Below, one piece after another: positions 3,803-32,798 of a DNA stretch of 40,397 nucleotides. The stretch lies in NCBI GenBank assembly GCA_947628655.1, contig CANRAS010000018.1:1-40397 (forward strand). Reading direction: 5' to 3'. The notes under the pieces were generated by a model. It saw only the letters and a list, made by a program, of their open reading frames with translations, searched no databases and was not told the origin of the DNA. Position 1 is the stretch's first letter, and the number at the start of each line of letters is the position of its first letter. Source of the DNA: an uncultured Clostridia bacterium (GTDB taxonomy: Bacteria > Bacillota > Clostridia > Oscillospirales > Ruminococcaceae). A program made the position numbers and the translations under genes.

Positions 3803-4522
3803 TTATTTTTTCGACTGTTTGTCTGCTTTTTCCGTACCGCCGCTTAAAAGGCTGTTTTGTTTAGCGGCGGTCTGCGCTTTGAACTGTTCGGCGAATTCCG
3901 TTAAACGCTGTTTGCGGTCTTTGTAGTCCTTGAATATTTGTAGAAGTGAAATATCGTAACGCTGTAGGTGTTCCAGCAGTGTTAATTCCGAGGGGGATAA
4001 GTAAGGGCGTATGCTTGCGCCCGTTTCAAGGTTGTGTTCTGCTCGTAGTTGCTTTGTAGATTTCCCCGTTGCCAGCTTGTTTATCATATTAATTTCATTG
4101 GAATAGAAATAAACGGGGGCATCTATGCCGTAAATGTCCTGTAAAGCGTCTGTTAAGTTGCCGTATTCAATACGGGTTTTGTTAAATTGCCTTATAAACT
4201 CTTGCATAGCGTTGAATTGTGCTATATACTGTTCTTTTATTTTCATTGCTTTTTCACCGCGATAACCCATTGTAAGAATTAAAAAACCGTCCTTTGTAAC
4301 ATTGTAACACGGTCTTTCTTTTCCCTGTCGGTCGGTGTAGGAGGTCGGCTCAAAATTGAGCCCGCTAAACTCCTTAGAACATTGTAACTCCTGTATGTCG
4401 CGTATAACGTTTTTATGTCGTTTATGAAAATAATTTGCTATGTAATAGCTTGTTGTCATTGGTGTGCCGTGTGTATCGGCGCATATGCCGAACTCGTTCG
4501 GCTGAATTAAAAATTTAGTCAT
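3803..4522 (-). CDS. Rha family phage regulatory protein
   Basis: This is a 239-residue protein starting at an ATG behind GGGAGGTTACACA. Residues about 20-110 match the Rha domain (pRha, TIGR02681-like): MTTSYYIANYFHKRHKNVIR, then a block around NFEPTSYTDRQGKERPCYNV and the G-F-L-I-L-T-M-G-Y-R-G-E-K-A segment. The C-terminal half (about 140-239) is a separate, partly helical region with a Lys-rich tail; I cannot assign it. Rha proteins occur in temperate phages and islands and are thought to act as regulators. It is the last gene of a minus-strand cluster with the three small genes upstream, suggesting shared control. Confidence 0.8.
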   Translation of the reverse strand: MTKFLIQPNEFGICADTHGTPMTTSYYIANYFHKRHKNVIRDIQELQCSKEFSGLNFEPTSYTDRQGKERPCYNVTKDGFLILTMGYRGEKAMKIKEQYIAQFNAMQEFIRQFNKTRIEYGNLTDALQDIYGIDAPVYFYSNEINMINKLATGKSTKQLRAEHNLETGASIRPYLSPSELTLLEHLQRYDISLLQIFKDYKDRKQRLTEFAEQFKAQTAAKQNSLLSGGTEKADKQSKK

Positions 4523-9891: not shown

Positions 9892-11055
9892 ATGTCCATT
9901 AACAAATACTATAAAAATAACAAGCCTGTAAGGGATAAGGAGGGGCGTTTGGGGTATCGTGTGCGCGTTTCCTATACGGATTTGAACGGGAATTACAAGC
10001 AAGCCGAAAAAATTGTTTTCGGACTAGCGGAGGCGCAAATGACCGAACGCCAATTAATGGTTGATTACAAGGAAAGAAAAGACGGTATTTTAAAGAATAG
10101 ACTGACGGTAAATGAACTTATAGACGAATACTTGAATTATCATAGTATAGAGGTAAAAGAAACTTCCCTTGACTCCACCGCTAAAGTATTGAGATTAAGA
10201 GTTAGACCGTATTTAGGGGAATGCAGACTTGACAAGCTGACACAAAAAAGGCTTGCAGAGTGGAAAATAACCATTAGCGGACTTAACCTTTCAGACCGTA
10301 CCAAACAAGGCGCATACTCTATTTTCGTTGCCCTGTTGAATTACGCCGTTAAAATGCAATACATACCGAAAAATCCGCTTTCGGTGTTGGGGAACTTCAA
10401 AAAGAGCAGTAACGCAGAAGAAAAACCGCAGAAGTTGAGGTATTACACGGTCGAACAGTTCCAGAAGTTTATAGCCGTAGCGCAAAAGCATTGTAAAACC
10501 GTTAATGATTGGGGGTTTTATATGTTCTTTTTATTGGCATTTTTCACAGGTTGCCGAAAAGGTGAATTAAACGCCCTGCGTTGGTCTGATATAGAGGGAA
10601 ATGTAATTCACGTTCGGCGGCAAATAGCGCAAAAGTTGAAAGGGATAAAGGACAAGGAAACGACAACAAAAACAAGTGCTAGTAACCGTGACTTGCAAGT
10701 ACCCCCGCAAATAGTAGAGAAGTTGAAAGAGCATAAAGAACGCCAAAAGAAAGCGGCGGGGGATTTGTTTACCGAGGATTTTCGGGTCTGCGGGGGCGTT
10801 GGAACTCTTAGAGATACAACAATTGACAAGCGTAACCGACAATACGCCGAGGAGGCGGGGTTACCGCACATCACTATACACGAATACAGACACTCGCACG
10901 CATCGTTACTAGCTAATAACAATATAAATATACAAGAGGTAGCACGGCGATTAGGTCATAGCAATGTTAATATGACGTGGCAAATATACAGCCATTTATA
11001 CCCTAGTCAAGAGGAAAAAGCACTTGAAATATTAAAAGATATAGAGTTAGACTAG
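9892..11055 (+). CDS. Tyrosine-recombinase integrase
   Basis: This is a 387-residue Tn916/phage-type integrase. Residues about 1-65 form the small N-terminal arm-binding domain. Residues about 70-170 are the SAM-like core-binding domain (LTVNELIDEYLNYH). The rest is the catalytic domain with Arg222 (TGCRKGELNALRW), the H-E-Y-R-H box at His330-Arg333, RRLGHSN with His356 or nearby, and the nucleophile Tyr366 in QIYSHLY. All key residues are present, so the enzyme should be active. It lies 80 bp from the right attachment repeat, the usual place for an integrase that targets a tRNA gene. Confidence 0.93.
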   Translation: MSINKYYKNNKPVRDKEGRLGYRVRVSYTDLNGNYKQAEKIVFGLAEAQMTERQLMVDYKERKDGILKNRLTVNELIDEYLNYHSIEVKETSLDSTAKVLRLRVRPYLGECRLDKLTQKRLAEWKITISGLNLSDRTKQGAYSIFVALLNYAVKMQYIPKNPLSVLGNFKKSSNAEEKPQKLRYYTVEQFQKFIAVAQKHCKTVNDWGFYMFFLLAFFTGCRKGELNALRWSDIEGNVIHVRRQIAQKLKGIKDKETTTKTSASNRDLQVPPQIVEKLKEHKERQKKAAGDLFTEDFRVCGGVGTLRDTTIDKRNRQYAEEAGLPHITIHEYRHSHASLLANNNINIQEVARRLGHSNVNMTWQIYSHLYPSQEEKALEILKDIELD

Positions 11056-11069
11056 TCAAAAATTTTTAA

Positions 11070-11092
11070 TTATTTAGGGATTTTTTAGGGAT
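11070..11092 (+). repeat. Right-end TTTAGGGAT direct repeats
   Basis: Two copies of (A)TTTAGGGAT lie 45-65 bp inside the right attachment repeat and match the three copies near 3540-3575. They are candidate integrase arm-binding sites. Confidence 0.5.
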
Positions 11093-11101
11093 AGAAAAAT
11101 T

Positions 11102-11128
11102 AAAAACCGCATTACAATGCGGTTTTTT
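11102..11128. terminator. Terminator shared by integrase and tRNA-Ala
   Basis: AAAAACCGCAT and ATGCGGTTTTT form a stem with a 4-base loop. It is T-rich on both strands, so it can end the integrase mRNA on the plus strand. On the minus strand it gives the tRNA a new terminator 7-8 bp past its CCA end, replacing the original at 3357-3395. Confidence 0.8.
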
Positions 11129-11134
11129 CATATA

Positions 11135-11151
11135 GTGGTGGAGATAAGGGG
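11135..11151 (+). repeat. attR direct repeat within tRNA-Ala
   Basis: The 17 bp are identical to 3394-3410. They overlap the CCA and 3' acceptor strand of the tRNA gene. Confidence 0.88.
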
Positions 11152-11211
11152 ATTCGAACCCCTGACCTCTTACATGCGAAGCAAGCGCTCTCCCAACTGA
11201 GCTATACCCCC
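11136..11211 (-). tRNA. tRNA-Ala (anticodon CGC)
   Basis: The 76-nt cloverleaf reads on the minus strand. The acceptor GGGGGTA pairs with TATCTCC (two G-U pairs), the D arm is GCTCAGTTGGGAGAGC, and the anticodon stem CTTGC/GTAAG holds the loop TTCGCAT, giving anticodon CGC. The T arm contains GGTTCGAATCC. The CCA end is encoded. The last 16 nt form the island attachment site, regenerated by the integration, so the tRNA remains intact. Confidence 0.92.
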
Positions 11212-16469: not shown

Positions 16470-16502
16470 ACGAGGAAATGCGTTTCATTGTAATTAAATT
16501 GC

Positions 16503-16531
16503 TTGACAAACGCCGCTGTTTGTGCTATAAT
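16503..16531 (+). promoter_or_regulatory. Promoter of the toxin-antitoxin operon
   Basis: A perfect TTGACA (16503-16508) and TATAAT (16526-16531) with a 17-bp spacer, about 22 bp before the antitoxin start. Such operons are normally repressed by their own antitoxin at the promoter. Confidence 0.88.
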
Positions 16532-16552
16532 GTGTTAAAAGGAGATGATATT

Positions 16553-16807
16553 ATGGCACAAGTAAGTTTCAGAATTGATGACGAAATAAAAAATCAAGCG
16601 GAACGCGCGTTAGATGATATGGGGCTTACGATGTCGGCGGCGATTACCGTTTTTTTGAAGAAAGTCGGCAGGGAACACAGAATACCGTTTGAAATCAACG
16701 CCGACCCTTTCTATTCCGCCGCGAATATGGAACGGCTGAGAAAGTCCGCCGCGCAAATGGAACAGACGGGCGGGACGGTGCATGAAATAGGAGAAAGCGA
16801 TGTTTAA
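16553..16807 (+). CDS. RelB/DinJ-family antitoxin
   Basis: This 84-residue protein starts at an ATG behind AAAGGAGATGAT. The N-terminal AQVSFRIDDEIKNQAERALD-DMGLTMSAAITVFLKKV is the ribbon-helix-helix DNA-binding domain of RelB/DinJ antitoxins. The C-terminal part (about 55-84, rich in Met, Ala and Glu) should wrap and block the toxin. It overlaps the toxin gene by 8 bp, so translation is coupled. It likely represses its own promoter at 16503-16531. Confidence 0.9.
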   Translation: MAQVSFRIDDEIKNQAERALDDMGLTMSAAITVFLKKVGREHRIPFEINADPFYSAANMERLRKSAAQMEQTGGTVHEIGESDV

Positions 16808-17063
16808 GGCTTTTTCTGACGACGCTTGGGAAGATTACACTTATTGGCAAAAACAGGACAAGAAAACTTTGCGCCGCATTATTAAACTTATTGAAGATAT
16901 TGACAGAAACGGGTATGAAGGGATTGGAAAACCTGAACGGCTTTCGGGCGATTTGTCAGATTATTACAGTAGGCGTATTGATGATAAAAATCGCATTGTT
17001 TACCGCATTGTCGGTGATGTAATTCAGATTATCCAATGCGGTTCTCATTATCGTGACAAATAA
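16800..17063 (+). CDS. yoeB: YoeB/Txe-family mRNA interferase toxin
   Basis: This 87-residue RelE-superfamily endoribonuclease should cut mRNA in the ribosomal A site when not bound by its antitoxin. The family's catalytic residues are all present at the canonical numbers: Glu46 (GKPERL), Arg65 (DKNRIVYRI), His83 and Tyr84 (CGSHYRDK). It pairs with the RelB/DinJ-type gene just upstream, an antitoxin type often found with YoeB. The pair sits between two sulfatase-fold paralogs. Confidence 0.93.
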   Translation: MFKAFSDDAWEDYTYWQKQDKKTLRRIIKLIEDIDRNGYEGIGKPERLSGDLSDYYSRRIDDKNRIVYRIVGDVIQIIQCGSHYRDK

Positions 17064-17168: not shown

Positions 17169-17197
17169 TTGACACGGCGTTAAAATTGTGGTATAAT
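17169..17197 (+). promoter_or_regulatory. Promoter of the envelope operon (17290-22028)
   Basis: A perfect TTGACA (17169-17174) and TATAAT (17192-17197), 17 bp apart. It precedes the second sulfatase-fold gene and probably drives the following genes. Confidence 0.88.
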
Positions 17198-17289: not shown

Positions 17290-18972
17290 ATGAACGCGTC
17301 TGCACAAGAAATTAAAAAACAATCTAAATTTAAAAACGCCTTTAAGGCGCTTTTGCCGTCATACATCATTGCTTTCGTATTTTGCTTTATGCTGTTCATT
17401 TACGAACCGCTGTTGATGTACAGTACTAATCAGCTTGACTTCTGGTTCGATATGGCGCTGATGATAGGTCCTGTTTTGCTGGGATTTTTGGCGGCGTTTT
17501 TTGGGTGCGTTTTGGTGCTGACGGCGGTGTATTTTATCAACAGAGCGTTCTCGAAAGAGCCGTCCGTGTACAGAATATTCGCGGTCGTGCTGTTTCTCGT
17601 GATGTTTGTCACTTATGTGCAGGGGAATTTCCTGTCGGGCAATCTGCCCGCGCTGGACGGCTCTGTAATAAACTGGAGCGAGTTTGCGAAGAACGACATC
17701 ATCACGGTAGGTATAGCCGCCGTTGCCGCGGGTGTGCTTATTACTCTTTTGGTGCGCAAAGGCACGAGGAAAACGCTGTTTGTGACTATGATAGCGTCGG
17801 CGGGGGTGTTTGCCTTACTGCTTGTGTCGCTCGTGTTTGAACTTATCAGCTGGAACGCGTTTGTGCGCAAAGACAGCGTTATCACGACTAACAGGAATTT
17901 CGATCAGGTTTCAGCCGATACGAATTTCATCATCATACTGAATGACGCCGTGGGTTCTTCGGAATTTAACAGCGTTCTGGAGAAATACCCCGAATATAAG
18001 GAAGTGTTCGAGGACTTCACTTATTATCCCGATACGCTGGGGTGCTTTCCGTGTACGCGCGATACTATTCCCGTTGTTTTGGGCGGAGCGGTAAACACGA
18101 ATGAAATGGATTTTGACAAATTTTCGTCAAACGCTATGAACAACTCTCCGCTTTTCAGGGAACTTGACAGCAGAGGTTACGAGATAAACCTCTATGAAAG
18201 CGAACTCGTGTGGTACGGCGCGCAGAACTTCGACATTGTGAACAGCACAAACTACACTAATTATACCCTGCCGTTCAAGACGTTTTGGAAAGAGCAGTTA
18301 AAGTATGTGGGCTACAAGTATCTTCCGTATACGTTAAAGAAATATTCCGAAATCGAAAGTATGGATTTCAACGGGCTTATCGACAAGTATTTGTGGGATT
18401 TCCGCTCGATATACAACGATATAGAAACTCACCCCGAACTTCAAAAAACGGATAAAAAATCATTCCGCTTTGTTCATACCGAGGGAGCGCATATTCCGTT
18501 CAAATATGATAAGTACGGGGAAATACTCGAGGGTTACAGCGATTACGAAACAGAGATAGAAGCGACTATCCATATGACGAACGAGTATATAAAACGGCTT
18601 AAAGAAAACGGCGCGTATGACAATTCCGTTATCATAGTTATGGCGGACCACGGCAACACGGATTTGAACGACGCCGATGATATGCTGGTACGCGCGAACC
18701 CGATGTTCCTTGTAAAAGGAATAAACGAACACCATGCGTTTGAAAAATCCGACAAACCGCTTTCATATACCGACCTTACCGATATTTATACGAAACTGCT
18801 TGACGGAAAGAGCGCGAAGGACGCGTGCGCGGATATTCCCGACAAGCGCGAGCGGTTCTTTATGTGGTACAGGAATTTCAGACTGGAAGATCATATTGAA
18901 GAATATGTCGTTACCGATAAGGCGTGGGAATGGCAGAAGTTCAAGAAAACGGGACGGGAATTTGATTTGTAA
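17290..18972 (+). CDS. LtaS-like sulfatase-fold membrane protein (paralog 2)
   Basis: This 560-residue protein has the same architecture as the 14796 gene product. About five membrane helices occupy residues 20-190, then comes an extracytoplasmic alkaline-phosphatase-superfamily domain. Candidate metal and catalytic residues are Asp219 (IIILNDAVG), Thr259 (CTRDTIPVVLGGA), His401 (EGAHIP) and Asp453-His454 (MADHGN). The ribosome binding site is GAGGAG. Only 14 bp separate it from the YidC-TagF fusion gene, so the two are co-transcribed. The family precedent (LtaS, EptA, OpgB) is transfer of a phospho-head group from a lipid to an acceptor outside the cell; the acceptor here is unknown. Confidence 0.78.
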   Translation: MNASAQEIKKQSKFKNAFKALLPSYIIAFVFCFMLFIYEPLLMYSTNQLDFWFDMALMIGPVLLGFLAAFFGCVLVLTAVYFINRAFSKEPSVYRIFAVVLFLVMFVTYVQGNFLSGNLPALDGSVINWSEFAKNDIITVGIAAVAAGVLITLLVRKGTRKTLFVTMIASAGVFALLLVSLVFELISWNAFVRKDSVITTNRNFDQVSADTNFIIILNDAVGSSEFNSVLEKYPEYKEVFEDFTYYPDTLGCFPCTRDTIPVVLGGAVNTNEMDFDKFSSNAMNNSPLFRELDSRGYEINLYESELVWYGAQNFDIVNSTNYTNYTLPFKTFWKEQLKYVGYKYLPYTLKKYSEIESMDFNGLIDKYLWDFRSIYNDIETHPELQKTDKKSFRFVHTEGAHIPFKYDKYGEILEGYSDYETEIEATIHMTNEYIKRLKENGAYDNSVIIVMADHGNTDLNDADDMLVRANPMFLVKGINEHHAFEKSDKPLSYTDLTDIYTKLLDGKSAKDACADIPDKRERFFMWYRNFRLEDHIEEYVVTDKAWEWQKFKKTGREFDL

Positions 18973-18986
18973 AAGGAGCGCGAAAG

Positions 18987-21059
18987 ATGTTTCTGGGCAA
19001 GGTCTTAGGTCCTGTAATGAGTTGGTGTTATCAGCTTATCGGCAATTACGGCTGGGCTATTGTGTTGTTTACGCTGTTCAGCAAAATAGTGCTGCTGCCC
19101 GTTTCAATTTGGGTGCAGAAGAACTCTATAAAAATGGTCAGGATGCAGCCGACGATAAACAAGATAAAGATAGACCATTTCGGCGACAAGGACACGATTG
19201 CGGACGAGCAGTCAAAACTTTTCAAAAAGGAAAAGTATAACCCCTTAGCGTCGCTTATTCCGCTGATTATTCAGATAATACTGCTGATAGGTTTGGTAGA
19301 GGTAATAAACCACCCGCTGACTTACATAACGAAAATCGACGATACGAGCATTTCCGCGCTGACGGGAACGGCGCTGTCGGTGAATGATAAACTTGACCCG
19401 CAGTCGTCGGGACTTGAAATAGCCGTTGTTGAAGATATTCAAAACGGCACGGCTCTCGATAAATACGGCGCGGCTGTAAGCGCTGATGTTATCACGAGTA
19501 TAGAGAACCTTAAAATGCGGTTCTTCGGGCTGTCGCTCGGCTGGGTCGCAACTACAACGGGCGGCATTGCGTGGCTTGTACCCGTTATAGCGGGCGTTTC
19601 GGCGTTTCTGCTGTGCTTGGCGCAGAATATGATAAACGTTCTGCAAGCGGAACAGTCTAAGTGGAACAAGTACGGTATGATGATTTTCTCGGTCGGACTG
19701 TCATTGTATCTCGGAATGTTCGTTGCCGCGGGCGTTGCGCTTTACTGGACGGCAAGCAACCTGCTCGCTATTCTTCAGCAATGGCTGTTGAATATCGCGA
19801 TAGACCCGAAAAAGCACGTTGACTACAGCGCGCTTGAAAGCACCCGCAAGGAACTTTTTGAACTCAATAATATGAAATCCGTAAAGTCGCTTTCAAAAGA
19901 GGCGAAAAAGAAAGCGAAAGCCGATTACAAGCGGTTTTTTCATATCATCAACAAGCACCTTGTATTCTATTCCGAAAGCAACGGATTTTATAAATACTAT
20001 AAGGGAATAATCGAGTATATCTTAGCGCATACGAACATTACGATACACTACATAACAAGCGATTTCAACGACGGCATTTTTGAACTTGAAAAGCAAAACG
20101 AGCATATCAAGGCGTATTTCATTGACGAAAAGCGCCTTATAACGCTTATGATGAAAATGGACGCGGACGTTGTGGCAATGACTATGCCCGACCTTGAAAC
20201 GTATCATATAAAGCGCAGTTATATCCGAAAGGATATAGAGTATGTGTACATTCCGCACGGAATGGATTCCAACAATATGGCGTTCAGAACAAAGGCGCTG
20301 AACGCGTTTGACACGGTTTTCGTCAGCGGGCAGTATCAGTTGGAGGAAATGGAGAAGATAGCGAAACTCTATTCGCTTGACAATCAGAAGTTTATTAAAT
20401 ACGGCTACTGTCTGCTTGACCAAATGATAGCCGACTATGAAAAAGAGCATAAGGAAAACGAAACTCCCACCGTGCTTATCGCACCGTCGTGGCAGAAGAA
20501 CAATATAATAGAACTCTGCTTTGACGAACTTATGGAGAACGTGCGCGGTAAAGATTACAATGTCATAGTCCGTCCGCACCCTCAGCACGTTCGCCACGCG
20601 CCCGAAAAGTTCGAGCGGTATAAGGAGCAATACAAGGACGACAGGAACATCACGATACAGACGGATTTTTCGAGCAATTCCACCGTGTTTAACGCGGATA
20701 TTCTTATTACCGACTGGTCGTCTATATCGCAGGATTTCGCGTTCACTACTAAAAAGCCCGTTATATTTATCGACACCCCGCCTAAAATTATGAACCCCGA
20801 CTACAAACTTATCGACACACCGCCCATTAATATCTGGATACGGGACGAGATTGGAAAGGTCGTCAAGGTTTCGGAACTTAACACGATCGACGCGGTAATC
20901 AGGGATATGATAAGCAGGAGCGCGGAGTATCACGACAAGATAGCCGAAGTCACCGAGCGGTGCGTTTACAACATCGGCACGGGCGGTGAAGTCGGCGGGA
21001 AATATATCATCGAGGCAGTTCAAAATCAGATAAAGAGGAGAAAGGAAAGCAAATCATGA
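18987..21059 (+). CDS. Fusion: YidC/Oxa1 insertase + TagF-like CDP-glycerol glycerophosphotransferase
   Basis: This 690-residue single frame starts at an ATG behind AAAGGAG. Residues 1-275 are a YidC/Oxa1/Alb3 insertase domain: FSKIVLLPVSIWVQKNSIKM, then MQPTINKIK, an amphipathic cytoplasmic loop, and later membrane helices ending in GVALYWTASNLLAILQQWLL. The groove Arg conserved in most YidC proteins appears to be Lys33. After a Lys-rich linker (about 275-315), residues 316-690 match the TagF/TagB glycerophosphotransferase family (PF04464-type): YIPHGM with His424, IAPSWQ, VRPHPQH at about 528-534, and SNSTVFNADILITDWSS. The enzyme would use CDP-glycerol (or a related CDP-polyol) on the inner face while anchored by an insertase-like module. 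I see no frameshift or internal start suggesting two separate genes. Confidence 0.88.
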   Translation: MFLGKVLGPVMSWCYQLIGNYGWAIVLFTLFSKIVLLPVSIWVQKNSIKMVRMQPTINKIKIDHFGDKDTIADEQSKLFKKEKYNPLASLIPLIIQIILLIGLVEVINHPLTYITKIDDTSISALTGTALSVNDKLDPQSSGLEIAVVEDIQNGTALDKYGAAVSADVITSIENLKMRFFGLSLGWVATTTGGIAWLVPVIAGVSAFLLCLAQNMINVLQAEQSKWNKYGMMIFSVGLSLYLGMFVAAGVALYWTASNLLAILQQWLLNIAIDPKKHVDYSALESTRKELFELNNMKSVKSLSKEAKKKAKADYKRFFHIINKHLVFYSESNGFYKYYKGIIEYILAHTNITIHYITSDFNDGIFELEKQNEHIKAYFIDEKRLITLMMKMDADVVAMTMPDLETYHIKRSYIRKDIEYVYIPHGMDSNNMAFRTKALNAFDTVFVSGQYQLEEMEKIAKLYSLDNQKFIKYGYCLLDQMIADYEKEHKENETPTVLIAPSWQKNNIIELCFDELMENVRGKDYNVIVRPHPQHVRHAPEKFERYKEQYKDDRNITIQTDFSSNSTVFNADILITDWSSISQDFAFTTKKPVIFIDTPPKIMNPDYKLIDTPPINIWIRDEIGKVVKVSELNTIDAVIRDMISRSAEYHDKIAEVTERCVYNIGTGGEVGGKYIIEAVQNQIKRRKESKS

Positions 21060-21295
21060 CTATGCAGGTTTTATTAAAGAAAATCGTATCAAACAGGGGA
21101 TATATCGACCCGTCTGTTATGACCTACGCGATACAGGCAATCGCGGGCGTTGTTATAGCGGTGGGCGCGGTGTTGGGCGTTCACTTTCACAGAGCGAAGA
21201 AAAAACTCGCGGAGAAACTTAACATTGACGAAAACAAGAACAAGGAAGTAGAGGGCGACGATATTATCGTCACCGACGGCGACAAGGCGGAATAA
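21056..21295 (+). CDS. Small single-TM membrane protein
   Basis: This 79-residue protein's ATG overlaps the stop codon of the fusion gene (ATGA), so it is translationally coupled. One membrane helix is visible (about residues 22-43, TYAIQAIAGVVIAVGAVLGV), followed by a basic stretch (HFHRAKKKL) and an acidic tail. The basic side suggests the C-terminus is cytoplasmic. No family is recognised. The tight coupling suggests a subunit or adaptor of the fusion protein. Confidence 0.75.
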   Translation: MTMQVLLKKIVSNRGYIDPSVMTYAIQAIAGVVIAVGAVLGVHFHRAKKKLAEKLNIDENKNKEVEGDDIIVTDGDKAE

Positions 21296-21314
21296 TTTTA
21301 GCGGGGTTTAACTT

Positions 21315-22028
21315 ATGTCAAATAACTGGAAAAGCATTTGGGAAAAACGGAAGATGAACGAGGACGCGTTCAATACCGATGATATTAACAAACTGTTTGT
21401 CGAACTCAAACGCGCGGACGGCTTTGACGTCGGCGGCGGCGCGATTTCCGAAAAGGAACTTCTCCGTCAGTACGAGGATATAAAAACACGGCTCACGGCG
21501 AACTCGCCGACGGCGTTAAATTCCGTTTACGAGTTCGGATGCGGAGCAGGCGCGAATTTACTGTTATTCGAGCGCGACGGTTTTACCTGCGGAGGTATCG
21601 ACTATTCATCGGCGCTTATCGACATTGCAAAGAAAGTCCTGAAATCCGACGACATAGTATGCGACGAGGCAAAGAATGCGGGCGTTTCTCCGAAATACGA
21701 CTGCGTTCTCGCGAACAGCGTTATTTCGTACTTCCCGAACACGGATTACACACTTGAAGTTCTCGAAAAGATGTACGAAAAAGCGAACTTCTCGATAGGT
21801 CTTATCGACGTTCACAACATTGAAAAGAAAGAGGACTTCTTAGCGTTCCGCAGAAAGACGGTCGAGAATTACGACGAGAAATACGAAAATTTAAGCAAGC
21901 TGTTTTACAGCAAGGATCTGTTCGCGGACTTCGCGAAATCGCACGGGTTGAAGATAGAGTTTTACAATTCCGTTGTGGAGAATTATTGGAACAACGAGTT
22001 TGTTTTTAACTGTTTTCTTTATAAGTGA
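21315..22028 (+). CDS. SAM-dependent methyltransferase, class I
   Basis: This 237-residue protein has the Rossmann-fold methyltransferase motifs. Motif I is VYEFGCGAGANLLLF (about 71-85), the acidic loop after strand 2 is GGIDYSSALIDIA, and motif IV is YDCVLANSVISYFP. The N-terminal WKSIWEKR segment is common in small-molecule and glycan methyltransferases of this class. It is the last gene of the envelope operon, 19 bp after the small membrane protein and followed by a strong terminator, so it may methylate the polymer or a precursor. The substrate is not deducible. Confidence 0.82.
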   Translation: MSNNWKSIWEKRKMNEDAFNTDDINKLFVELKRADGFDVGGGAISEKELLRQYEDIKTRLTANSPTALNSVYEFGCGAGANLLLFERDGFTCGGIDYSSALIDIAKKVLKSDDIVCDEAKNAGVSPKYDCVLANSVISYFPNTDYTLEVLEKMYEKANFSIGLIDVHNIEKKEDFLAFRRKTVENYDEKYENLSKLFYSKDLFADFAKSHGLKIEFYNSVVENYWNNEFVFNCFLYK

Positions 22029-28423: not shown

Positions 28424-30412
28424 ATGGCAATTGTTGTTCCCGAAAAATACAACGTGCCGCTCTATCTGTTCCATCAGGGCGAAAACGCACACGCGTATGA
28501 TTTTTTCGGTTCGCACAAGGAAACCGTGGACGGCAAAAGCGGAGTAGTGTTCAGATGCTGGGCGCCGCACGCTAAGTCGGTTAGCATTGTGGGAGATTTC
28601 AACCACTGGGACAGAACCCGTAACTGCATGAATAAAATCAGCGACGGCGGTATCTGGGAACTGTTCGTTACGGGTATCAAGCAGTATGACAACTATAAAT
28701 ACAGCGTTGAAGCGCCCGACGGGCTTATCAAGCTGAAAGCCGACCCTTACGGTTATCATATGGAACTGCGCCCGAACACGGCTACAAAGTTCTATGACCT
28801 TGACGGGTATAATTGGAAAGACGGCGCTTATCAGAAAAAACTCGCACAGTCGAGCGTTTACGAAAGTCCGATTAATATTTATGAAGTGAACGCGGGCTCG
28901 TGGAAACACAACGGCGAACATTATGTAAGCTATGAAATGCTCGCCGATGAACTTATTCCGTATGTTAAGGAAATGGGTTATACTCACATCGAACTTATGC
29001 CGATAGGAGAATATCCGTTCGACGGTTCGTGGGGGTATCAGCAGATAGGATATTTTGCGCCCACGTCGCGTTTCGGTACGCCGCACGATTTTATGCGGTT
29101 CGTGGACAAGTGCCATCAGGCGGGTCTCGGCGTTATTATGGACTGGGTTCCCGCGCATTTCCCGAAAGACGCGGCGGGCTTGTACGAATGGGACGGCACA
29201 AGCTGTTATGAATACGAGGACCCGTTCCGCAGAGAGCATAAGAGCTGGGGTACGCACATCTTCAACTGGGGACTTCCCGAAGTGCAGAGTTTCCTTGTGT
29301 CCAACGCGAATTACTGGATTGAGAAATATCACATAGACGGCTTGCGAGTGGACGCTGTAGCGTCTATGCTGTACCTGGACTATGACAGGCGCGACGGAGA
29401 GTGGCGTCCGAACAACAAGGGCGGAAAGGAAAATCTGGAAGCTATCGCGTTCCTGCAAAAGCTGAACGCGGCGGTGTTCAAGGAACATCCGAACATTCTG
29501 ATGATAGCCGAGGAAAGCACCGCTTGGCCTATGGTAACAAAACCCGCGGACATCGGGGGCTTGGGCTTTAACTTCAAGTGGAATATGGGCTGGATGAACG
29601 ATATGCTCCGCTATATGAGCATGGATCCGCTCGGCAGACCTTATAATCACAATCTCGTGACGTTCTCGTTCTACTATGCGTTTTCTGAGAACTTCGTACT
29701 GCCGATAAGCCATGACGAGGTCGTTTACGGAAAGTGTTCAATGCTCGATAAAATGGGCGGTCCGCGCGAGTATAGATTTAATTCTATGCGGACGTTCTTA
29801 GGGTATATGATGGCGCACCCCGGCAAAAAGCTGATGTTTATGGGACAGGAATTTGCACAGTATAAAGAGTGGAATTTCCAGACTCAGCTGGACTGGGAAG
29901 TGCTTGAATTTGAACCGCACTATAAATATCATCAATATGTAAAGGCAATAAACAAGTTCTATCGTGAAAATCCCGCGCTGTGGGAGTGCGACACAAGCTG
30001 GGACGGTTTCCATTGGATTTCTGCGGAGGACAGCCAGAACTCCGTTATTGCGTTCAGACGTATCGCGAAGAACAAGGACGAGATTATCGTAGTGTGCAAC
30101 TTCCAGCCTGTTCGGCACGAGATTTACGAAATAGGCGTTCCGTACTATGCGGATTACGAAGAAGTGTTCTCGTCCGATGCGGTCGAGTTCGGAGGGAGCG
30201 GAATAACAAACGGTACTGTCACCGCAAAGGAAGAGCCTATGCACGACGAGCAGTACAGAATTACCCTTGATATACCGCCGATGTCCGCGATATACCTGAA
30301 ACCGAAAAATATCCGCGACCCGCACGCCGACGCGGAGGAAAAGGCAAAGGAAAAGCAACCCGCCAAGGAGAAATCCGAGGACGACGGCAAGGCTAAGGCT
30401 AAGAGCAAATAA
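28424..30412 (+). CDS. glgB: 1,4-alpha-glucan branching enzyme
   Basis: This GH13 enzyme introduces alpha-1,6 branches into glycogen. It has 662 residues. A CBM48 domain is near residues 35-110 (VVFRCWAPHAKSVSIVGDFN). The GH13 barrel has the nucleophile Asp310 (GLRVDAV), acid/base Glu363 (MIAEES) and His430-Asp431 (PISHDEV). GEYPFDGSWGYQ is a branching-enzyme hallmark. The C-terminal tail of about 35 residues is a run of Lys, Glu and Ala after the normal enzyme end, which is unusual. It is first gene of glgBCD, with an excellent GGAGGT site. Confidence 0.96.
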   Translation: MAIVVPEKYNVPLYLFHQGENAHAYDFFGSHKETVDGKSGVVFRCWAPHAKSVSIVGDFNHWDRTRNCMNKISDGGIWELFVTGIKQYDNYKYSVEAPDGLIKLKADPYGYHMELRPNTATKFYDLDGYNWKDGAYQKKLAQSSVYESPINIYEVNAGSWKHNGEHYVSYEMLADELIPYVKEMGYTHIELMPIGEYPFDGSWGYQQIGYFAPTSRFGTPHDFMRFVDKCHQAGLGVIMDWVPAHFPKDAAGLYEWDGTSCYEYEDPFRREHKSWGTHIFNWGLPEVQSFLVSNANYWIEKYHIDGLRVDAVASMLYLDYDRRDGEWRPNNKGGKENLEAIAFLQKLNAAVFKEHPNILMIAEESTAWPMVTKPADIGGLGFNFKWNMGWMNDMLRYMSMDPLGRPYNHNLVTFSFYYAFSENFVLPISHDEVVYGKCSMLDKMGGPREYRFNSMRTFLGYMMAHPGKKLMFMGQEFAQYKEWNFQTQLDWEVLEFEPHYKYHQYVKAINKFYRENPALWECDTSWDGFHWISAEDSQNSVIAFRRIAKNKDEIIVVCNFQPVRHEIYEIGVPYYADYEEVFSSDAVEFGGSGITNGTVTAKEEPMHDEQYRITLDIPPMSAIYLKPKNIRDPHADAEEKAKEKQPAKEKSEDDGKAKAKSK

Positions 30413-30449
30413 TTCCGAATTTAAAATATAAATCAAGGAGGAAGAAAAT

Positions 30450-31655
30450 ATGAACCACATTAAAAAAGAGTGCGTCGCTATGCTGCTTGCAGGCGGTCAG
30501 GGCAGCCGTTTGTATGCGTTGACGCAGGATATGGCAAAGCCTGCCGTACCTTTCGGCGGCAAATACCGTATCATTGATTTCCCGCTGTCGAACTGCGTTA
30601 ATTCGGGGATAGATACGGTCGGCGTTCTCACGCAGTATCAGCCGATGGTGCTTAACGAGTACATAGGCAACGGTCAGCCGTGGGGACTTGACAGAGCGCA
30701 CGGCGGCGTACACGTTCTCCCGCCGTATGAAACCGCGAGCGGAAAGAGCTGGTATTCGGGAACGGCGAACGCTATCTATCAGAACATCAGCTTTATCGAC
30801 CGCTACAATCCCGATTATGTGGCAGTCCTTTCGGGCGACCATATTTACAAGATGAACTACGGCAAAATGCTTGATTTCCACAAGCAGAAAAACGCGGACG
30901 CGACTATAGCGGTGCTTGAAGTTCCGTGGGAGGAAGCGTCGAGATTTGGCGTTATGAGCGTCGATGAAAACGACACTATCTACGAGTTTGCGGAGAAACC
31001 CGCAGAGCCGAAATCGAACTTGATTTCAATGGGCGTTTATGTGTTCACATGGGCTAAACTTCGCCGTTATCTTATCGAAAACGAAAACGACGAGGGAGCG
31101 ACTAAGGACTTCGGCAAGAACATTATCCCCGCGATGATGGATAACAACGAAAAAATGGTCGCTTACCGCTTTGACGGTTACTGGAAAGACGTCGGAACGA
31201 TAGATTCGCTTTGGGAGGCAAATATGGATATGCTCGACCCGAATGTTCCGCTTGATTTGCTTGACTATAGCTGGAAAATCTATTCGCGCAACCCGATTAT
31301 GCCTCCGCATTACGCAGGTCCGCAGTCGCGCATTGAGAACTCAATGATAGCCGAGGGGTGCGAGATAAACGGTATGATAGACTTCTCCGTGCTGTTTGCG
31401 GGAGTTACCGTTGAGGAGGGCGCTATTGTGCGCGACTCTATCATCATGCCGAATACGGTAATTAAAAAAGGCGCGGTTATCGAATATGCGATAGTCGGCG
31501 AGGACTGCGTTATCGGCGAGGGCGCACACATCGGCGAACGTCCCGAACTTATCGAGGACAAGTCGCAGTGGGGCGTGGCTGTTGTCGGACACCGTGTAAA
31601 CGTTTCGGACAAAGCCGTAGCTCCGCCAAAGGCTATGATTTCTAAGGATATATGA
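30450..31655 (+). CDS. glgC: Glucose-1-phosphate adenylyltransferase
   Basis: This 401-residue enzyme makes ADP-glucose, the glycogen precursor. The N-terminal nucleotidyltransferase motif is complete ([20 protein letters not shown]), followed by [20 protein letters not shown]. The substrate motif [12 protein letters not shown] is also present. The C-terminal third is a left-handed beta-helix. It is 37 bp after glgB with AAGGAGGAAG as ribosome binding site. In Firmicutes GlgC works with GlgD, encoded next. Confidence 0.96.
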
Positions 31656-31673
31656 TAGAGGAGGACGTTTGAT

Positions 31674-32798
31674 ATGGCTAGTATGTCTAAAGTTTTGGGC
31701 TTGATTTTTGCAAATATGCACGAACAGACCCTGCCTGAGCTTACAAAGGCGAGGGCAATGGCAAGCGTTCCGTTTGGCAGTAAGTATCGTCTGATAGACT
31801 TCCCGCTGTCCGCAATGGTCAATTCGGGAATTACCCGCGTCGGAATAATCACTAAGCAGAATTACTACTCTTTGATGAACCATTTGGGAATGGGTTCGGA
31901 ATGGGATTTGGCGCGCAAAACGGGCGGTCTTCACATTCTCCCTCCGTACGGGCGCGAGAACGCGGGTATGTACCGCGGCAGACTTGAGGCGCTCGCGGGC
32001 GCGGCGCAGTTCATTCACGAAAGCAACGCGGAGTATGTCGTTATGGCTGACAGCAACGTAGTCGCAAATATTGATATGCGTTCTATCGTGGACTTCCACG
32101 AGAAAAACGAGGCGGACATTACCTGCGTTTACGGAAAAGTTGTATATCCCACCGAACGCGCTCTTATGCAGACTATACTCTGCGTTGACGAAAACGACAC
32201 GGTATATGATGTTCTCGCAAGACCCGCGATGAGCGGCGAGATGAACGTTGCGCTGAACATTTACGTTATGCGCCGCAAGTTCCTTGAGGACCTTATCCGC
32301 GAAAGCGAATGCCGCAGTCTGTACAGCTTTGAAACGGATATTCTCCAGCACAAACTGCACGATTTCAAGGTAATGGGTTACAAGTATGACAAGTACTTTG
32401 AAATAATAGATTCTATGAAAACCTATTACAAGGTAACGATGGAGATAAAGAACCGCGACATTTCGCGCGAGGTGTTCTCTATGGACACGCCGATTTACAC
32501 AAAGGTGCGCGACATTGCGCCCGCGAAGTACGGCATAGATTGTTCCGTGAAGTCCTCGCTTGTTGCTGACGGGTGCATTATCGACGGCGTTGTCGAAAAT
32601 TCCGTACTGTTCCGCGGCGTTAAAGTCGGCAAAGGCGCGGTCGTAAAGGACAGCATTGTTATGCAGAACGCGGTCATCGAGGAGAAAGCGTCGTTTATCA
32701 ACGCGATTGCAGACAAGGAAGTTACGATTTCCAAGAACCGCACGATTACGGGTTCGGCGGACTTCCCTGTTTACATATCTAAGGGTGGAGTTGTGTGA
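31674..32798 (+). CDS. glgD: GlgD subunit of glucose-1-phosphate adenylyltransferase
   Basis: This is a 374-residue GlgC paralog. It keeps the fold (ASVPFGSKYRLIDFPLSAMV) but lacks the G-G-x-G-x-R nucleotide-binding loop, having HEQTLPELTKARAMASVPFG instead. This is the usual condition of the regulatory GlgD subunit, which raises activity of the GlgC/GlgD complex. It is 18 bp after glgC with AGAGGAGGA in front, and is the last gene of the operon. No glgA or glgP lies in the window. Confidence 0.94.
   Translation: MASMSKVLGLIFANMHEQTLPELTKARAMASVPFGSKYRLIDFPLSAMVNSGITRVGIITKQNYYSLMNHLGMGSEWDLARKTGGLHILPPYGRENAGMYRGRLEALAGAAQFIHESNAEYVVMADSNVVANIDMRSIVDFHEKNEADITCVYGKVVYPTERALMQTILCVDENDTVYDVLARPAMSGEMNVALNIYVMRRKFLEDLIRESECRSLYSFETDILQHKLHDFKVMGYKYDKYFEIIDSMKTYYKVTMEIKNRDISREVFSMDTPIYTKVRDIAPAKYGIDCSVKSSLVADGCIIDGVVENSVLFRGVKVGKGAVVKDSIVMQNAVIEEKASFINAIADKEVTISKNRTITGSADFPVYISKGGVV

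Follow-up and report, generated by a model that had tools for sequence, protein, structure and literature searches.

Why would a bacterium attach the fold of a membrane protein insertase to an enzyme of the kind that builds teichoic acids? The question is raised by one gene in a 40,397-nucleotide stretch of DNA, referred to here as the window, from an uncultured Clostridia bacterium of the Ruminococcaceae (assembly GCA_947628655.1, contig CANRAS010000018.1). Its product joins a YidC/Oxa1 domain to a PF04464-type transferase domain, and an original prediction, made before any database search, took it for a YidC insertase fused to a TagF-like enzyme that uses cytidine diphosphate (CDP)-glycerol. 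Our tentative reading, which we rate at somewhat less than an even chance, is that the fusion is a headgroup transferase whose YidC fold may provide the passage by which a lipid or its headgroup reaches a second transferase on the outer side of the membrane.

A single protein in many gut genomes

The open reading frame (ORF) opens with ATG and runs for 690 residues with zero internal stops. Pfam places PF02096 (60KD_IMP, YidC) on residues 21-269 at 117.6 bits (cut-off 35) and, in the same frame, PF04464 (Glyphos_transf) on residues 321-594 at 49.3 bits (cut-off 22.1), and the NCBIfam model TIGR03592 (yidC_oxa1_cterm) scores 110.9 bits against a cut-off of 84.3. Both the single frame and the domain borders of the original prediction are thereby borne out. 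Along with the profiles, the N-terminal half displays the groove cation, about five core transmembrane (TM) helices and the cytoplasmic hairpin after the first helix that are looked for in a YidC, and it matches solved YidC chains in the Protein Data Bank (PDB). A crude hydropathy scan gives peaks at approximately residues 25-43, 89-107, 194-212, 232-250 and 245-263, the last two of which overlap, and lysine and arginine number 10 in the loop at 44-88 as compared to 5 in 116-193. From hydropathy and charge, both crude guides, we infer that the hairpin 44-88 and the transferase domain lie on the cytosolic side. At the C-terminal end an enzyme takes the place of the ribosome-binding YidC tail, and the N-terminus is without a signal-type sequence. 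One related locus (L113:9431-11896) encodes a fusion of 821 residues, with roughly 185 extra residues of unknown kind N-terminal to the YidC domain.

To what extent the protein is shared was examined at several phylogenetic depths. Six of 41 relatives carry the fusion, namely the window's own genome and those designated G011, G013, G018, G024 and G025, and a fusion profile at 1e-60 matched 11 of 197 genomes of the order, one of which (G194) matched only over the YidC part. A scan of named genomes yielded 424 pattern matches, of which 348 were confirmed as relatives. The 83 loci used below are the best 80 of these 348, ranked by similarity to the fusion, together with the window, L027 and L028; L025, L026 and L029 were excluded from the counts as duplicates of stretches from G024, G011 and G013, and selection by similarity means that unfused relatives may exist among the remaining 268 loci. 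The best 80 records are mostly gut metagenome-assembled genomes (MAGs), titled as Clostridia, Oscillospiraceae, Lachnospiraceae, Erysipelotrichaceae/Solobacterium and Bacilli, with 13 titled Candidatus Saccharibacteria. Near-copies such as L103/L104 and L060/L066, and the presence of L089 and L099 in one genome, mean that the 83 loci represent fewer independent events.

In all 83 loci the two domains share one ORF, and in none does the transferase occur without YidC. The fusion is thus confirmed as a genuine single protein, and the same domain pair that the original prediction proposed to look for elsewhere recurs in Clostridia and Bacilli of the gut and in records that bear the title Ca. Saccharibacteria. 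That MAGs are the source of most sequences would favour an artefact of assembly or gene calling. However, the same single-ORF join recurs in independent assemblies at 41-83% identity with a conserved linker and architecture, one of the records (L069) is not titled as a MAG, and the frameshift or assembly join named at the outset as a possible refutation was not seen. We consider an artefact, frameshift or chimera ruled out, with a probability close to nil.

A tree of the YidC domain, built from the 83 fusions and 15 stand-alone YidCs of the order, sets the fusions apart with 100/100 support on a long branch of 1.45 and gathers the 13 Saccharibacteria rows into one nested group, although the tree is midpoint-rooted, has long branches and few stand-alone YidCs, takes its taxon names from record titles, and its bootstrap had not settled. 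This arrangement fits one origin of the fusion and one transfer into Saccharibacteria. A plasmid-borne or phage origin was rejected, as tblastn against plasmids recovered three records over the YidC part alone and a comparison with PHROGs gave zero matches.

Both halves of the protein are conserved. In an alignment of 55 of the 83 fusions (29 for the transferase profile), position 33 is lysine in 53 and arginine in two, and His424, His531 and Asp576-Trp577-Ser578 are invariant, in agreement with the original prediction, which had seen both histidine motifs and had placed Lys33 at the groove arginine. We take the two histidines to be catalytic from what is known of TagF. Mean pairwise identity is 0.58 in the YidC core, which has 14 invariant positions, 0.55 in the transferase and 0.25 in the external loop that joins TM2 to TM3. 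Against three close relatives, Jukes-Cantor estimates for both halves give dN of 0.09-0.14 and dS of 0.98-2.02, the latter near saturation; by these rates purifying selection is acting on both.

The organism has another YidC. Its genome encodes a separate protein of 526 residues (G000:C28), whose gene is flanked by those for YidD and the RNase P protein (rnpA) and, at its opposite end, by jag; the original prediction had proposed to look for a stand-alone yidC in such a setting. All six fusion-bearing genomes, this one included, have a stand-alone yidC. Because the housekeeping yidC sits elsewhere in the same genome, the fusion is, by gene content, an additional and specialised copy. Compared to YidC/Oxa1/SpoIIIJ proteins (PF02096, TIGR03592), the fusion passes both cut-offs and keeps the groove cation and cytoplasmic hairpin, but it forms its own clade, ends in an enzyme and stands as a second copy.

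A module with LtaS-like proteins and YIDP

The genes that surround the fusion had been overlooked in the original prediction. They encode two LtaS-like membrane proteins of the 'sulfatase' fold, a small membrane protein that we term YIDP, and a methyltransferase (Table 1). We infer that positions 17290-22028 form one operon. The promoter listed upstream of it is a consensus match alone and not proof of a promoter, as the scan returned 20 sites against a mean of 12.3 in shuffled sequence.

Table 1. Positions of the fusion, its domains and key residues, and the neighbouring genes within the window
Feature	Position	Strand	Details
Fusion protein, YidC/Oxa1 domain and PF04464-type transferase domain	18987..21059	+	one ORF, 690 aa
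YidC domain, residues 21-269	19047..19793	+	PF02096; about five TM helices, hairpin 44-88, variable outside loop ~106-175
Lys33, YidC groove Arg position	19083..19085	+	aligned with Arg of a PDB YidC chain
Transferase domain, residues 306-690, predicted cytosolic	19902..21056	+	PF04464 and transferase-family profile
His424 (IPHGM)	20256..20258	+	invariant in 55/55
His531 (RPHPQH)	20577..20579	+	invariant in 55/55
Membrane 'sulfatase'-fold protein 1, LtaS-like, Thr-nucleophile type, 557 aa	14796..16469	+	PF00884, 45 bits
Membrane 'sulfatase'-fold protein 2, 560 aa	17290..18972	+	PF00884, 37 bits; stop 14 nt before fusion
Sigma-70-like consensus promoter, upstream of operon	17169..17197	+	TTGACA-17-TATAAT, TG before -10; 12/12
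YIDP small membrane protein, 79 aa	21056..21295	+	start overlaps fusion stop (ATGA)
Class I S-adenosylmethionine methyltransferase, 237 aa	21315..22028	+	PF13489; 19 nt downstream of YIDP gene

The two sulfatase-fold proteins are 43% identical to one another. Their family profile ranks LtaS, lipoteichoic acid (LTA) primase and PbgA/YejM ahead of sulfatases proper (LtaS 2w5q, E 4.5e-8). Across 22 of 66 clustered sulfatases, residues D219, T256, H396, H401, D453 and H454 are invariant, and D219, T256, D453 and H454, which presumably hold active-site roles, match up with positions in PbgA and LtaS, so that the threonine and the metal-site residues of that superfamily are retained. A threonine at the nucleophile place is a trait of LtaS and EptA, and because threonine occupies that place here the neighbouring 'sulfatase' is more likely a phosphotransferase than a sulfatase. 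The family nonetheless departs from LtaS, EptA and PbgA in that the similarity is weak, with the NCBIfam LtaS cut-off of 970 bits missed (protein 1 at 21.2 bits, protein 2 without a match), and in its association with YIDP and with the triple fusions described below.

Among the 41 relatives, a sulfatase homologue at 1e-20 is found in five of the six fusion-bearing genomes and in none of the 35 others (Fisher p 8e-6, uncorrected for kinship). In G018 the sulfatase and the fusion lie on different contigs, and the association therefore exceeds mere linkage. Sulfatase profile matches occur in 64/83 loci (33 of the 44 that span at least 18 kb) and YIDP matches in 78/83 (43 of the 44). Moreover, 17 ORFs from 15 loci carry the YIDP stretch at the N-terminal end of a sulfatase, and a single chain of approximately 1200 residues unites sulfatase, YidC and transferase in L084 and again in L096. 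As judged from neighbourhood, co-occurrence and these two kinds of fusion, the YidC-transferase protein, the sulfatase and YIDP are one module. The YIDP family carries the signature YIDPSVMTYxIQAxAG ... GIDENKNKEVESDEI, and the members scanned gave zero matches in Pfam, NCBIfam or PHROGs. A homologue of the methyltransferase stands beside the fusion in 7/83 loci; it was considered as a candidate phosphoethanolamine N-methyltransferase, and its PDB matches are weak and to unspecific methyltransferases only (best E 0.0024).

Several other features of the window were recorded. Between the two sulfatase genes, at 16478-17063, lies a toxin-antitoxin pair (YoeB-type toxin, RelB/DinJ-type antitoxin) with a consensus promoter of its own at 16503-16531; in L036, L037 and L048 the interval separating the sulfatase genes held no ORFs matching this pair. 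The gene for a tyrosine integrase of 387 aa (9892-11211) stops 80 nt short of a tRNA-Ala gene that lies on the other strand, and a Rha-like phage regulator is encoded at 3803-4522; judging by these genes, the region is probably an element integrated at a tRNA site. Glycogen-type genes occupy 28424-32798: one for a GlgB-like branching enzyme and, after it, two that encode GlgC-like nucleotidyltransferases.

Candidate donors for the transferase

PF04464 enzymes use CDP-alcohols as substrates, and the original prediction assigned CDP-glycerol to the fusion. This part of it is unsupported. In the window's genome (95.6% complete) we did not find TagD, the glycerol-3-phosphate cytidylyltransferase (TIGR01518), at E<=1e-3, nor a second PF04464 protein, and TagD was likewise not found at this threshold in the fusion carriers G011, G018 and G024. 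The transferase domain resembles TagF/TagB in passing the Pfam cut-off and in that its HG and PHP histidines and ITD-W/Y-S motif align, in weak alignments, with stand-alone PF04464 proteins of relatives. Its family profile, however, reaches only 7-26 bits against seven such proteins and matched zero glycerophosphotransferase chains in the PDB even at E<=1, and the fusion is set apart from TagF/TagB by the attached YidC domain, the lack of TagD in its genome and a different set of neighbours.

Many of these neighbours are predicted to serve cytidine activation. At least one kind of cytidine-activation gene is present in 44/83 loci (30 of the 44 that reach 18 kb or more), and the kind found near the fusion varies with lineage. 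A LicC-like nucleotidyltransferase (NTase) fused to a CobD-like pyridoxal phosphate (PLP) domain is encoded in 15/83 loci, within 3 kb of the fusion in 15/15 and on the same strand in 14/15; this count comprises bifunctional ORFs, and L065 and L114, with separate partial matches only, were left out of it. Phosphonate genes adjoin the fusion in others, with phosphoenolpyruvate (PEP) mutase in 7/83, phosphonopyruvate decarboxylase in 6/83 and 2-aminoethylphosphonate (AEP) transaminase in 9/83. A LicC-choline kinase fusion occurs in 6/83 loci, a TagD-MocA oxidoreductase in 8/83, and stand-alone LicC-like enzymes, whose substrate family scans leave unresolved, in 20/83. From these enzymes we would propose that the shared chemical theme is a cytidine-activated amino headgroup. 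In L040 (13468-14799) and its relatives a TagD-like cytidylyltransferase and a Gfo/Idh/MocA oxidoreductase make up one protein, next to which several of the loci encode a HisC-like aminotransferase, and one may speculate that these enzymes yield a cytidine-activated amino-polyol such as serinol.

The window's genome itself encodes an NTase-CobD protein (G000:C17:4903-6687) that is 63% identical to that of G018; another is found at L119:4855-6705, and the PDB neighbours of the protein are CobD, LicC and PntC-AEPT. By analogy with CobD relatives, the CobD-like part presumably yields ethanolamine phosphate; the literature search returned no paper in support of such a phosphoserine decarboxylase step, and a limited search found no published description of the NTase-CobD fusion. 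Among the relatives the NTase-CobD gene shows a modest enrichment, in three of six fusion-bearing genomes as compared to one of 35 others (p 0.007).

The donor genes were then counted genome-wide for 50 of the 80 fusion loci, picked by locus number modulo 8. Full-length NTase-CobD was found in 13 genomes (14 places), PEP mutase over cut-off in 10, a long TagD-type ORF in nine (the MocA part was not checked in each) and TagD over cut-off in eight, where CDP-glycerol may yet be the donor, such that 26 genomes have NTase-CobD, PEP mutase or the long TagD-type ORF. For TIGR01518, 22/50 genomes, mostly MAGs as are the rest, had no match at E<=1e-3 and 42/50 had none over cut-off. A donor that is always a phosphonate, as hinted by G013/L110, was rejected for the window, whose genome is without PEP mutase, and in view of the mere 10/50 fusion genomes in which that enzyme passes its cut-off.

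A precedent for this chemistry is the PntC pathway, in which, according to the published study, AEP is activated by a cytidylyltransferase for use on surface glycans or lipids and LicD-like transferases are encoded nearby (PMC6697681). As in that pathway and in LicC/LicD phosphocholine tailoring, LicC-like and AEP-pathway genes adjoin the fusion, but here the putative last transferase is the YidC-PF04464 protein and not LicD, which occurs in 5/83 loci. NTase-CobD also has a class I PLP domain, whereas Tde1415 has a class V AEP transaminase.

Headgroup passage weighed against anchoring and insertion

In the mechanism that we tentatively favour, the cytosolic GT-B-like PF04464-type domain would accept a small phospho- or phosphono-group in the form of its cytidine nucleotide. 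An amino headgroup is the most likely case, with a CDP-ethanolamine-like donor in the window's organism, and cytidine monophosphate (CMP)-2-aminoethylphosphonate or a CDP-choline-like donor elsewhere. The domain would load this headgroup onto a membrane-bound acceptor in the inner leaflet. The YidC fold, whose hydrophilic groove bears a cation, would serve as platform and as the polar headgroup's route to the outer leaflet, where the LtaS/EptA-like Thr-nucleophile 'sulfatase' would pass it to a surface acceptor with YIDP as a partner. The lipid acceptor, the passage through the groove and the order of the steps are conjecture. The earlier suggestion that the insertase fold might act as a membrane platform or lipid-linked-substrate path agrees with this mechanism. 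A narrower version, a self-contained headgroup synthase-flippase, appears unlikely, though not markedly so. In it the PF04464-type enzyme would load amino-alcohol phosphates or aminophosphonates from cytidine nucleotides onto a membrane lipid, and the YidC fold, no longer an insertase, would move the headgroup via its cationic groove to the LtaS/EptA-like transferase to which it is coupled, covalently or genetically. On this version the fusion would be a YidC homologue given over to exporting lipids or glycans, the first of its kind, spread over several gut lineages with apparently one passage into Saccharibacteria. MprF, the lysyl-phosphatidylglycerol synthase-flippase, follows the same design principle, with a membrane flippase and a cytosolic headgroup-transfer part in one chain; its folds are unrelated and its donor is an aminoacyl-tRNA. 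In liposomes the purified YidC of E. coli acts as a lipid scramblase, and several Oxa1 relatives scramble lipids in simulations (PMC10491306); a review repeats the idea (PMC7618853). By analogy with the E. coli protein, the YidC domain of the fusion may do likewise.

A number of observations weigh against this mechanism. Because many Oxa1 members scramble lipids, scrambling is a generic property. The triple-fusion chain suits a relay, yet a scaffold would look alike. Nineteen of the 83 loci have no sulfatase match, and in G013, which bears the fusion, none was found genome-wide at 1e-20. As to the donor genes, NTase-CobD is unlinked to the fusion in the window's genome and occurs without it in G023, where LicD is encoded two genes away; PEP mutase shows no enrichment (1/6 fusion-bearing against 2/35 other relatives, p 0.39); and NTase-CobD, PEP mutase and TagD were all not found in the fusion carrier G011 (86% complete). 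TagD alone is present in 4/50 fusion genomes, and G025 has a standard PF04464 protein and a TagD-type ORF as well. Finally, 20/50 (40%) have none of NTase-CobD, PEP mutase, the TagD-type ORF or TagD, a four-kind count that excludes LicC-choline kinase and stand-alone LicC.

The closest competitor accepts the headgroup transferase and treats the YidC domain as mere anchor and scaffold for transferase and sulfatase, without transport. An enzyme with a lipid acceptor requires membrane attachment, the triple fusions amount to physical coupling, and the ribosome-binding tail has been replaced, all of which would suit a scaffold. A plain anchor would be expected to drift, however, and this one is conserved to the same degree as the catalytic half, with its invariant core positions, K/R33 in 55/55 and the hairpin kept; we regard anchoring alone as unlikely, somewhat more so than the synthase-flippase. 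That the transferase is after all a teichoic-acid-type polymerase or primase using CDP-glycerol, on an odd membrane anchor, draws on the activity for which PF04464 is named, on the two invariant histidine motifs, on TagD passing its cut-off in eight of the 50 fusion genomes, and on LtaS-like proteins, which use glycerophosphate in known cases. Set against this are the failure to find TagD in the window's genome and in three other carriers, its absence over cut-off from most of the 50, the distance of the domain from structurally known members and the activation genes by the fusion, mostly of other kinds, and we hold the TagF assignment to be improbable. Slightly less probable still is a functional insertase devoted to one particular client, such as the adjacent polytopic sulfatase or YIDP, which the transferase would modify or to which it would couple. 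The canonical YidC features are kept and candidate clients are encoded alongside in most loci, but a stand-alone yidC exists in 6/6 fusion-bearing relatives, the ribosome-binding tail is gone, and the triple fusions hold the presumed client in the same chain.

The two domains are members of known families, while the combination and the module match no described system that we found. A literature search returned no published YidC-glycerophosphotransferase fusion, as the original prediction had supposed, with subscription journals and preprints mostly outside the search and with domain databases that may list the architecture; the examined parts of a YidC-evolution paper and of a YidC review do not mention it. 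If the headgroup-passage module works as proposed, the universally conserved YidC fold would have been taken into service as an enzyme's membrane portion, and the fusion would offer a direct test of whether lipid scrambling by insertases has a physiological use. It would also be a candidate for the final steps, hitherto missing, by which Clostridia and Bacilli of the gut, and possibly Saccharibacteria, decorate their surface with amino-phosphates or phosphonates, and would draw attention to NTase-CobD, YIDP and the LtaS-like family as proteins still to be given a role. Even as a scaffold only, a conserved insertase-transferase fusion with hundreds of genome matches deserves an entry.

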